A stretch of DNA of 64,000 nucleotides. It comes from Flavihumibacter rivuli. GTDB taxonomy: Bacteria > Bacteroidota > Bacteroidia > Chitinophagales > Chitinophagaceae. Each line of letters starts with the position of its first letter. The stretch's first letter is position 1. The notes beneath the pieces were generated by a model. The model worked only from the letters and a program-made list of their open reading frames with translations. It was not told the origin of the DNA and did not search any database. Shown piece after piece: positions 5,333-6,690 of this stretch. The stretch is from assembly GCF_018595685.2 (NCBI RefSeq), contig NZ_CP092334.1, forward strand, positions 3,004,001 to 3,068,000, in the 5' to 3' direction. The position numbers and the translations under genes were made by a program.

Positions 5333-5800
5333 TCAGGGCTGGACCAATACATTCCTGTTCAGGCTTTCATCAAGGGAGATAAAGGTCTCGGTTCGTTCAA
5401 TACCCTTGATCTTCTGCAATTGGTCATGCAATACATTGCGCAATTGGGCAATATCCTTACAAACGATCTCGGCAAAGATGCTATAGTTACCGGTGGTATA
5501 GTTCAGGCGCACGATCTCGGGGATCTTCATCAATTCCTTTGCTACAGTATCGTATAGGGAGCTCTTCTCCAGGTAGATACCAATAAAGGCGATCACATCA
5601 TAGCCCAGCAATTTAAGGTCAACATTAAGTTTTGTACCTTTCACAATGCCCATTTCCTGCAATTTCTTGATGCGGACATGGATGGTACCCCCTGATACGA
5701 ATAGTTTTTTACCCAGGTCTGCGTATGAGGTTTCCGCATTATCCATCATTTCATGGATGATCTGGTAATCAAGTTTGTCCAAATTCAATTTCCCGGCCAT
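5333..5800 (-). CDS. Lrp/AsnC family transcriptional regulator
   Basis: Regulator of 155 residues. The N-terminal AsnC-type HTH (residues 8-60: LDYQIIHEMMDNAETSYADLGKKLFVSGGTIHVRIKKL) is followed by the C-terminal RAM ligand/oligomerisation domain with the usual strand and Gly pattern (VIAFIGIYL, VRLNYTTGNYSIFAEIV). Family members sense amino acids and bind AT-rich palindromes. The divergent intergenic region holds such a palindrome (5845-5860), beyond which lies the tRNA-like RNA unit. Autoregulation, and control of that RNA unit, is inferred from position only. Confidence 0.92.
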   Translation of the reverse strand: MAGKLNLDKLDYQIIHEMMDNAETSYADLGKKLFVSGGTIHVRIKKLQEMGIVKGTKLNVDLKLLGYDVIAFIGIYLEKSSLYDTVAKELMKIPEIVRLNYTTGNYSIFAEIVCKDIAQLRNVLHDQLQKIKGIERTETFISLDESLNRNVLVQP

Positions 5801-5884: not shown

Positions 5885-5917
5885 TTTGCAACGAATCGCC
5901 CCTTTGCTTTATGTTTG
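5885..5917 (+). promoter_or_regulatory. promoter of the twin tRNA-like RNA unit
   Basis: TTTG (5885-5888), a 21-nt spacer, then TATGTTTG (5910-5917). This is an almost ideal Bacteroidota housekeeping promoter. Transcription is expected to start near 5922-5925, about 17 nt before the first acceptor stem. Confidence 0.65.
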
Positions 5918-5940
5918 CACTATCAAAGTTCTTAAAACAC

Positions 5941-6095
5941 TGTGGGGTGATGAAATTTTGGCAGACATGCCCTCTCGTCTCGGGGGTGGGGAAGCCGGGA
6001 TAAACCGATCGTAGATCCGTCCGTACTTCTGGTAAGGCCGAATGTTTTTGTGATCAGCTAACCGCCCCGTGGAGGTTCGACTCCTCCCCCTACAG
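5941..6095 (+). ncRNA. tRNA-like RNA, copy 1, with 84-nt variable arm
   Basis: A complete type-II cloverleaf can be drawn by eye. The acceptor stem is TGTGGGG (5941-5947) with CCCTACA (6088-6094), 7 bp including one G-U. T8-G9 follow. The 3-bp D stem is ATG/CAT with a Leu-type D loop containing TTGGCAGA. The anticodon stem is CCCTC (5970-5974) with GGGGG (5982-5986) and the 7-nt loop TCGTCTC. The T arm is GGAGG-TTCGACT-CCTCC (6071-6087), and G73 is at 6095. CCA is not encoded. The variable region (5987-6070) is 84 nt instead of about 15, closed by TGGGG/CCCCG. Loop position 33 is C, not the universal U, and the formal anticodon GTC (Asp) does not fit the Leu-like body. A role outside translation is therefore likely (inference). 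I know of no named family that matches. Confidence 0.7.
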
Positions 6096-6205
6096 CAGCA
6101 TTTTTAGTCACGGAAGGGTTACCGTTAACCGAACAGCCTGGTGGAAACCGGGTGGCTCAAAACAAGCAGCGGCAACCAATACCTGACAAGCAGATTCTTT
6201 TACAC

Positions 6206-6376
6206 TGTGGGGTGATGAAACTTTTGGCAGACATGCCCTCTCGTCTCGGGGGTGGGGATCACAGGACAAACGTAGCATAGAGCCGACTCTACCATTGGTA
6301 AGGCCGACCAGGGTTGACCACTAATCTTTGTGCTATAGCTAACTGCCCCGTGGAGGTTCGACTCCTCCCCCTACAG
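6206..6376 (+). ncRNA. tRNA-like RNA, copy 2, with 99-nt variable arm
   Basis: Same cloverleaf as copy 1. Acceptor TGTGGGG (6206-6212) pairs with CCCTACA (6369-6375), G73 is at 6376, and the T arm lies at 6352-6368. D arm and anticodon arm are identical to copy 1 except for one extra C in the D loop. The variable region (6253-6351) is 99 nt and differs strongly in sequence from copy 1. It keeps the closing TGGGG/CCCCG helix, TGGTAAGGCCGA (6296-6307), an ACAAA/TTTGT pairing (6266-6270 with 6327-6331) and AGCTAAC just before the closing helix. A local hairpin TAGAG-CCGA-CTCTA lies at 6278-6291. The copy is followed at 6391 by an intrinsic terminator, so both copies probably come from one transcript. 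Confidence 0.7.
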
Positions 6377-6390
6377 CTAACCAACCGAAA

Positions 6391-6413
6391 ATCCCGCCTA
6401 TGGTGGGATTTTT
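6391..6413 (+). terminator. intrinsic terminator of the tRNA-like RNA unit
   Basis: ATCCCGCC (6391-6398), a TAT loop, GGTGGGAT (6402-6409), 8 bp with one G-U, then a run of T. It lies 14 nt after the second tRNA-like RNA. Confidence 0.75.
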
Positions 6414-6690
6414 ATGTTCATGCAGCAAGCAACGATGAGCCGCCTATTGTGATACCGCCTGCATCAACTACATCGCTTTTCTCATGTGTGTGTTACAGTT
6501 GTAGCAGGCCCTTCTATCTGGAAGGGCCTTTTTGATTCATCTCCATTCCTCCATCCTCTTGCAATGGTATGAATCCAGGTCCTTTTCCTGGGAGGTCCAT
6601 TATAGGCATTGCCACCTGCTTCAGTAGTGAATGGAACAACAGGATCGGTTCCATGATGCTCGAGAATTACTAAATCAAGTCTTGAAATAA
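6414..6690. other. intergenic region without a recognisable gene
   Basis: No credible coding frame was found. The region holds a second strong terminator (6506-6533) and, upstream of it, about 90 nt that might be read-through from the tRNA-like unit or a short RNA of its own; no convincing promoter was seen. A weak CCAGG/CCTGG hairpin lies near 6575-6592. Confidence 0.5.
6506..6533 (+). terminator. second intrinsic terminator
   Basis: AGGCCCTTC (6506-6514), loop TATCTG, GAAGGGCCT (6521-6529), a perfect 9-bp GC-rich stem followed by TTTT. No gene lies directly upstream on this strand, so it probably backs up the terminator at 6391 or ends a short RNA. Confidence 0.75.

Follow-up and report, generated by a model that had tools for sequence, protein, structure and literature searches.

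A Bacteroidota family of tRNA-like RNAs with giant variable arms, and its predicted link to AspRS, GatCAB and asparagine formation

What kind of RNA combines a complete tRNA cloverleaf and an aspartate-type anticodon loop with a giant variable arm, and what might a bacterium use it for? The question is raised by a compact unit on the plus strand of the 64-kb window (the whole stretch of host DNA analysed here, to which all positions refer), in which we read, in order, a promoter, a boxA-like motif, RNA copy 1, a 110-nt spacer, RNA copy 2, and a terminator.

Architecture of the two-RNA unit

The promoter (5885–5917, plus strand) consists of TTTG at 5885–5888 and TATGTTTG at 5910–5917, a pair that we take to be a Bacteroidota-type promoter motif; as judged by eye, similar pairs lie upstream of many homologues. 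The motif GTTCTTAAAACA (5928–5939, plus strand) follows and is presumably a boxA. The sequence G[TC]TCTT was found up to 90 nt upstream of the RNA in 30 of 61 distinct upstream regions (mean in mononucleotide shuffles, 2.4), in the next 93 nt further upstream in 2 of 61, and upstream of 5 of 31 ordinary host tRNA genes. At the other end, a hairpin with a T tract (6387–6413, plus strand) forms an intrinsic terminator as originally predicted, folding at −16.2 kcal/mol (z −5.1). A simple terminator and sigma-70 scan of the window reported neither this terminator nor anything at 5885–5917, so that the predicted promoter stands as a reading of the sequence which the scan did not flag; its output instead held three sigma-70-like sites elsewhere and a terminator at 6506–6529, a second terminator-like hairpin downstream of the RNA unit. 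Divergent from the unit, at 5333–5800 on the minus strand, lies a gene for an AsnC-type regulator of 155 aa (Pfam AsnC_trans_reg and HTH).

Copy 1 (5941–6095, plus strand, 155 nt) is a divergent long form, placed by alignment A2 and by model R1 at 164.5 bits (L002:1499-1660), and copy 2 (6206–6376, plus strand, 171 nt) is a canonical long form scoring 216.9 bits with R1 and 167.3 bits with model R2. Both lengths agree with the original prediction, as does the cloverleaf described for them: each copy has a 7-bp acceptor, TGTGGGG/CCCTACA, with one G·U pair, a Leu-type D arm, a 5-bp anticodon stem, a 5-bp T stem with the loop TTCGACT, and G73 followed by C74. Since C also follows N73 in all 31 host tRNA genes printed, this GC end is ordinary for the host genome. 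The anticodon loop, defined from sequence and conservation, is TCGTCTC in both copies (5975–5981 and 6241–6247, plus strand), with C33, the anticodon GUC (5977–5979 and 6243–6245), and C38. The variable arms are indeed giant, but we counted 81 nt in copy 1 (5988–6068, plus strand) and 96 nt in copy 2 (6254–6349, plus strand) rather than the 84 and 99 nt first given. The arm of copy 2 includes GGGTTGACCAC at 6311–6321 and an internal loop, GGACAAAC..GCTAAC, and that of copy 1 is without GGGTTGACCAC.

ARAGORN detected no tRNA in the window, and an RF00005 search of the host genome yielded 38 tRNAs with neither copy among them. Over the same window Rfam 15 returned nothing at gathering score, RF00005 included, and between 5800 and 6600 it gave two weak sub-threshold matches with E-values up to 5; a known Rfam family was therefore discarded as an explanation. 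The RNA was likewise named nowhere in the titles and abstract starts of the open-licence PMC literature searched. The Infernal/Rfam check proposed with the original prediction, together with this literature search, is consistent with its statement that no described RNA class has this architecture. Folding of the single sequences was unconvincing (z −1.10 and −0.86 for the two copies).

Distribution, covariation and anatomy of the RNA family

Relatives were found across the family, order, and class of the host, and in another class of Bacteroidota. With copy 1 as query, blastn gave matches in 136 of the 195 host-family genomes, and model R1 (E<1e-20) placed members in at least 107 of the 198 genomes representing the order and at least 31 of the 296 representing the phylum. 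R1 had been built from 31 family copies in a MAFFT alignment (A2) that was made without structure and then folded, with the D stem added by hand. Among the matches listed in the phylum search, members scored ≥82 bits over ≥115 nt and ordinary tRNAs ≤58 bits over 78–94 nt; covariance-model matches of ordinary tRNA length (about 78–97 nt, ≤61 bits), L100 and L101 among them, were excluded as members. In one further genome (G126, outside the 70-genome set used below) the element is cut by a contig end (L398) and gave no full R1 or R2 match. A pattern scan of GTDB contigs returned at least 120 stretches, and R2 confirmed 79 of the 80 listed, the exception being a match in a Streptosporangiaceae MAG (L199). 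Titles with the RNA include Chitinophaga, Pedobacter, Mucilaginibacter, Spirosoma, Dyadobacter, Cyclobacterium, Algoriphagus, Fulvivirga, and an Ignavibacteriales MAG. Tandem copies occur, with up to five copies per genome among the matches listed, and long and short forms stand side by side in several genomes.

The pairing itself is supported by covariation. In A2, whose 31 copies were aligned independently of structure, 12 of 39 pairs showed changes on both sides, amounting to 80 cells against 18.8 in shuffles. In an alignment of 69 host copies (as distinct from viral ones) from 49 loci, which was fitted to the structure and so leans towards it, 23 of 39 pairs did so (317 cells against 69.5 shuffled, with none of 500 shuffles as high). 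Cells were paired in 98.9% of cases in the acceptor, 99.5% in the D stem, 95.9% in the anticodon stem, and 100% in the T stem, and both-side changes occurred in each helix. At the level of sequence comparison, cloverleaf and variable-arm stems are thus under compensatory evolution, and it is virtually certain that this is a genuine family of tRNA-like RNAs. The covariance-model search of related genomes recovered a conserved cloverleaf with a long insert, as expected if the unit is a real non-coding one, and tRNA pseudogenes could be dismissed on the strength of this covariation (317 against 69.5) and of the wide spread. We also rejected a selenocysteine-like 8-bp acceptor, as the −1:73 pair is not kept (C-G in 49, U-G in 14, and A·G in 6 of 69 copies), and a Ro-binding Y RNA motif in the variable arm, whose pairing did not fit by eye.

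Across the family the tRNA half is nearly fixed, whereas the 69 host copies have variable arms of 36 to 124 nt. The arm is built around two stems, one at its base and a short second one, with an internal loop resembling GGAYAAAC..GCTAAC; most long forms also have GGGTTGACCAC, copy 1 of the window being a divergent long form that lacks it. In one genus (g190), G34 is missing from the loops CTATCTC and CTCTCTC of L388 (genome G427) and L082 (genome G515), and the former retains a variable arm of just a few nucleotides. Some genomes of f18 (L093, L103, L114 [G248], and L116 [G224]) hold several dispersed copies without an AsnC-type neighbour.

Identity nucleotides and co-occurrence with gatB

We then compared the RNA with the nucleotides by which tRNAs are recognized. 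In the available part of PMC9976931, the bacterial AspRS identity set is given as G73, G10, G34, U35, C36, and C38, with G10 belonging to the E. coli set; U1-A72 is described as marking Asp-tRNA(Asn) for amidation by bacterial GatCAB, and G1-C72 and U20a as antideterminants of amidation in tRNA-Asp. G2:C71 is added to the AspRS set in PMC6523644 (available in part). The 69 host copies were found with models that prefer family letters, which affects invariance counts; with that bias, U1-A72, G2-C71, U3-A70, and G73 were present in all 69 (C74 also being invariant), as were U35, C36, and C38, and G34 was present in 68 (exception, L082). Acceptor pairs 4-69 to 7-66 covary in this alignment. G10 is not kept, the first D-stem pair being A-U in 49 copies, G-C in 10, U-A in 9, and another in 1, and U33 occurs in 46 of the 69 and is missing in 23, including both window copies (C33). 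The D loops end in GGCAGA, GGCAGC, or GGCATA; therefore position 20a is A in our numbering and there is no U20a. In 70 distinct full viral copies, U1-A72 (70 of 70) and G73 were again invariant, pair 3-70 was U-A in 63, G-C in 4, and A-U in 3, and pair 2-71 was A-U in 2; viral G34–C36 and C38 were fixed by the search pattern and carry no evidence of conservation.

Among host tRNAs taken from 30 of the 38 RF00005 places, U1-A72 was seen only in tRNA-Asn and tRNA-Gln. The host tRNA-Asn combines it with U20a (our numbering), and the host tRNA-Asp, encoded by two ordinary tRNA-Asp(GUC) genes, has G1-C72, the loop CTGTCAC, and U20a. Through its identity nucleotides and U1-A72, the RNA joins the anticodon loop and discriminator of Asp to the first pair of GatCAB substrates, and because its copies keep the AspRS set plus U1-A72 a link to GatCAB was predicted. 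AspRS might nonetheless charge it poorly, since position 10 is usually A and pair 1-72 is not the G-C of tRNA-Asp.

This idea was set down before gatB was looked at, in 70 genomes hand-picked by RNA status. These comprised 35 with the RNA (R1 E<1e-20) and 35 without it, namely 9 of the host family (no blastn match), 18 other Bacteroidia, and 8 of other classes (the latter two groups with no R1 matches or only tRNA-like ones). gatB (TIGR00133) was detected in 35 of 35 genomes with the RNA; in those without it, the counts were 0 of 9 in the host family, 2 of 18 in other Bacteroidia, and 8 of 8 in other classes. asnS was present in all 70 genomes. No glnS over cut-off was seen in six genomes with the RNA (G244, G220, G515, G619, G621, and G629), in three RNA-lacking Bacteroidia (G005, G397, and G427), or in 6 of the 8 representatives of other classes. 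Bacteroidia that have both AsnRS and GlnRS have no classical need for GatCAB, and among those tested gatB was found in 29 of 29 genomes with the RNA versus 0 of 24 without it. The two RNA-lacking Bacteroidia with gatB (G397 and G427) are both without GlnRS. The six RNA-bearing genomes without GlnRS would need GatCAB anyway, and gatB in six RNA-lacking genomes of other classes fits their lack of GlnRS. Against the rule, two genomes of other classes (G373 and G377) have AsnRS, GlnRS, and gatB, and the RNA was not found in them.

On an AsnRS tree of 40 of the 70 genomes, the RNA changes state five times, with at least four changes forced by well-supported branches, and gatB changes six times. In four independent pairs, for which p cannot fall below 0.125, gatB went in the same direction as the RNA in 3.7 of 4 on average and in the opposite direction in none. 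When R2 was run on the 35 genomes without the RNA, the matches listed were of tRNA length and ≤61 bits, except in two genomes. The match in G427 (67 bits) is to a reduced form whose variable arm is short and whose loop reads CTATCTC. In G020, a 144-nt match (L400, 1878–2021 of contig C72; 41.9 bits) has a long D loop and variable region, in which no GUC loop was seen by eye.

Asparagine formation and competing explanations

The genomic neighbourhood also points towards asparagine. An AsnC-type gene is the most widespread neighbour of the RNA, divergent and 93–210 nt away in 23 of 34 larger regions; these 23 span 12 families, including one that belongs to another class, and the gene is absent in the other 11. 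Other neighbours are confined to single families, chiefly that of the host, or scattered, e.g., a glycosyltransferase in 8 host-family regions. For the window regulator, the best solved-structure match was E. coli AsnC (2cg4, 116 bits; leucine-responsive protein 2gqq, 43 bits). E. coli AsnC activates the divergent asnA, and asparagine reduces this activation (PMC8707732, PMC4482635, both available in part).

Asparagine synthetases were distributed unevenly. E. coli-type AsnB (NF006949) exceeded its cut-off in 15 of the 70 genomes, all of them RNA-lacking Bacteroidia (15 of 27), and in 0 of 35 genomes with the RNA, a further RNA-lacking genome (G409) falling just below cut-off; eight of the nine RNA-lacking host-family genomes are also without it. 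AsnA was found in 4 of 35 genomes with the RNA and in 2 without. AsnB-like proteins over the TIGR01536 cut-off occurred in 60 of 70 genomes, including 30 of 35 with the RNA, and were missing from one RNA-lacking member of Bacteroidia (G031), four genomes of other classes, and five RNA-bearing genomes (G022, G087, G018, G538, and G597), in which AsnA over cut-off was absent as well. In these five, the RNA is plausibly the sole route to asparagine. As a general proposition, the RNA as sole source was not supported, since most genomes with it have an AsnB-like protein, including the host (437.8 bits).

Established from these genomes are the near-invariance of the AspRS identity nucleotides, the invariance of U1-A72, the divergence from an AsnC-type gene in most regions, and a close association with gatB across the tested genomes. 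We favour, with a probability of roughly 0.6, the interpretation that the RNA is dedicated and mostly non-decoding, that AspRS would charge it with Asp and GatCAB would amidate this to Asn, and that it would serve as a reusable carrier for asparagine formation. Processing by RNase P and CCA addition would proceed as in tRNAs. AspRS would then aspartylate the RNA through its Asp loop and G73, as the identity elements suggest, and GatCAB would convert Asp-RNA into Asn-RNA through U1-A72, with which the co-occurrence is consistent; these two reactions together seem fairly probable. Because the anticodon is GUC, some step must release or transfer Asn, which would putatively be freed or handed on and the RNA reused. 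That asparagine supply is the purpose of the RNA is roughly an even bet. The regulator may respond to Asn and adjust how much RNA is made, much as E. coli AsnC controls asnA. Asn-RNA(GUC), which would miscode by bringing Asn to Asp codons, may be kept away from the ribosome, or bound within an AspRS–GatCAB complex, by its giant arm and relaxed position 33; both features fit an exclusion from decoding. The broadest formulation, an RNA class that does the work of an asparagine synthetase with two housekeeping enzymes outside decoding, beside an AsnC-type regulator, and taken up by phages, could as readily prove wrong as right.

Several other functions were weighed against this one. The RNA could be a sensor or decoy that, charged and perhaps amidated, titrates AspRS or GatCAB, or whose variable arm acts according to charging, so as to tune Asp, Asn, and Gln use under the AsnC-type regulator. 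The divergent AsnC-type gene, the conserved domain of the variable arm, which includes GGGTTGACCAC in most long forms, the tandem copies, and the boxA-like leader would all suit such a role, yet a pure AspRS decoy has no need for U1-A72 and leaves unexplained why gatB is kept only with the RNA in the tested Bacteroidia that have AsnRS and GlnRS; we regard it as unlikely. Somewhat more doubtful still is a non-ribosomal donor role, in which the amino acid on Asn-RNA or Asp-RNA is passed to a wall precursor, a lipid, or a peptide: transferases of this sort would draw on a charged RNA that takes no part in decoding, and phage carriage would suit surface or peptide modification, but only the AsnC-type gene is widely shared as a neighbour across families, the others being family-bound or scattered. 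Of the three roles guessed in the original prediction, the non-ribosomal aminoacyl donor comes close to the carrier that we favour, and the regulatory mimic and the charged decoy explain less. GatCAB, phages, the divergent AsnC-type gene, the Asp-type anticodon loop, and U1-A72 do not figure in that prediction.

GatCAB might instead act on ordinary tRNA-Asn charged by a non-discriminating AspRS, the RNA being kept for a related but different reason. Host tRNA-Asn does have U1-A72, and this route has been proposed for genera, some of them Bacteroidetes, that have no Asn synthetase but do have AsnRS, GlnRS, and GatCAB (PMC4206432, available in part). However, host tRNA-Asn also carries U20a (our numbering), an antideterminant in Asp-tRNA-Asp, and the joint loss of the RNA and gatB would go unexplained, which makes this account improbable. 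A complete cloverleaf, the GUC anticodon, and U33 in two-thirds of host copies (46 of 69) would be expected of an odd decoding tRNA, an extra Asp isoacceptor; with two ordinary tRNA-Asp(GUC) genes already in the host, U33 missing from the remaining 23 copies and from both window copies among them, and a U1-A72 that would attract amidation, with Asn then inserted at Asp codons, we consider this very improbable. In the transamidosome, tRNA has a scaffold role. Such complexes are formed by AspRS, tRNA, and GatCAB (PMC9976931, available in part), and a large arm could dock proteins, so the RNA might be a scaffold of an AspRS–GatCAB complex rather than its substrate; invariant G73, C74, and U1-A72 point to use of the acceptor end, and we give this the smallest chance of all.

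The proposed chemistry is a variant of known transamidation, and it is the kind of RNA that we rate as new, on the basis of Rfam 15 and the open-licence literature. tRNA mimicry by non-coding RNA is familiar from YrlA and other tRNA-like bacterial RNAs; unlike these, the RNA described here has no Rfam match at gathering score. It resembles the tRNA-Asn of tRNA-dependent Asn synthesis by AspRS and GatCAB in Deinococcus, Thermus, and Bdellovibrio (PMC4206432, available in part) in G73, U1-A72, and a predicted Asp charging followed by amidation, here in organisms with AsnRS and mostly GlnRS. It differs from that tRNA in having GUC rather than GUU, so that it cannot read Asn codons and should require no non-discriminating AspRS, in its type II body with a giant arm, and in its own gene beside an AsnC-type regulator. 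With tRNA-Asp it shares G73, G2-C71, and a loop (GTC and C38) close to the host CTGTCAC, in contrast to its U1-A72 in place of G1-C72, the lack of U20a, the usual A at position 10, the giant arm, and the unkept U33. tRNA-Sec, selC* tRNA, and allo-tRNA are also type II with large variable arms, and some irregular allo-tRNA-like RNAs are inactive in E. coli translation (PMC7609411, available in part), whereas the arms here span 36–124 nt with a conserved internal domain and come with an Asp-type loop and links to GatCAB and AsnC. The arrangement recalls E. coli asnC-asnA, with an AsnC-type regulator divergent from a function that we read as asparagine-forming (PMC8707732, PMC4482635, in their available parts), except that the partner is an RNA rather than a synthetase gene and that regulation is predicted here.

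According to the available part of PMC4206432, 67–68 genera have AsnRS, GlnRS, and GatCAB, the role of GatCAB there is posed as a question, and GatCAB may be vestigial in many delta-proteobacteria. For Bacteroidia, the RNA would offer a direct reason why GatCAB is kept despite AsnRS and GlnRS. If the favoured carrier role is correct, a tRNA relative has been freed from decoding and retained to serve amino-acid synthesis, in effect as an RNA cofactor. The family also supplies a new covariance model for annotation.

Phage carriage raises the further question of why a virus wants this RNA; perhaps the phage copies use the AspRS and GatCAB of the host. A pattern scan of IMG/VR returned at least 120 contigs, and all 80 listed hold the RNA, one of them cut by the end of the stretch; blastn with copy 2 found no match in PLSDB plasmids or INPHARED phages. 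Of 20 proteins from IMG/VR loci searched against PHROGs, 8 matched families of the terminase large subunit, of portal proteins, or of DNA polymerases, and a relative of one terminase occurred in 24 of the 80 loci listed (four at <27% identity). Within the stretches covered for these 80 loci, the search turned up no AsnC-type relative. In many of these phage loci, among them L271, L280, L282, L306, and L326, the RNA lies 15 nt to a few kb from the terminase large subunit gene. Separately, a single regular expression picked out a second phage tRNA-like family, with the acceptor AGTCAGG/CCTGACT, a Leu-like D arm, the T arm ACAGG-TTCGAAT-CCTGT, and a hypervariable interior: 13 copies of 78–181 nt in 4 of the 80 loci listed (L296, L281, L274, and L311), with up to 7 copies per locus and two of tRNA length, and it is also present in IMG/VR locus L360.
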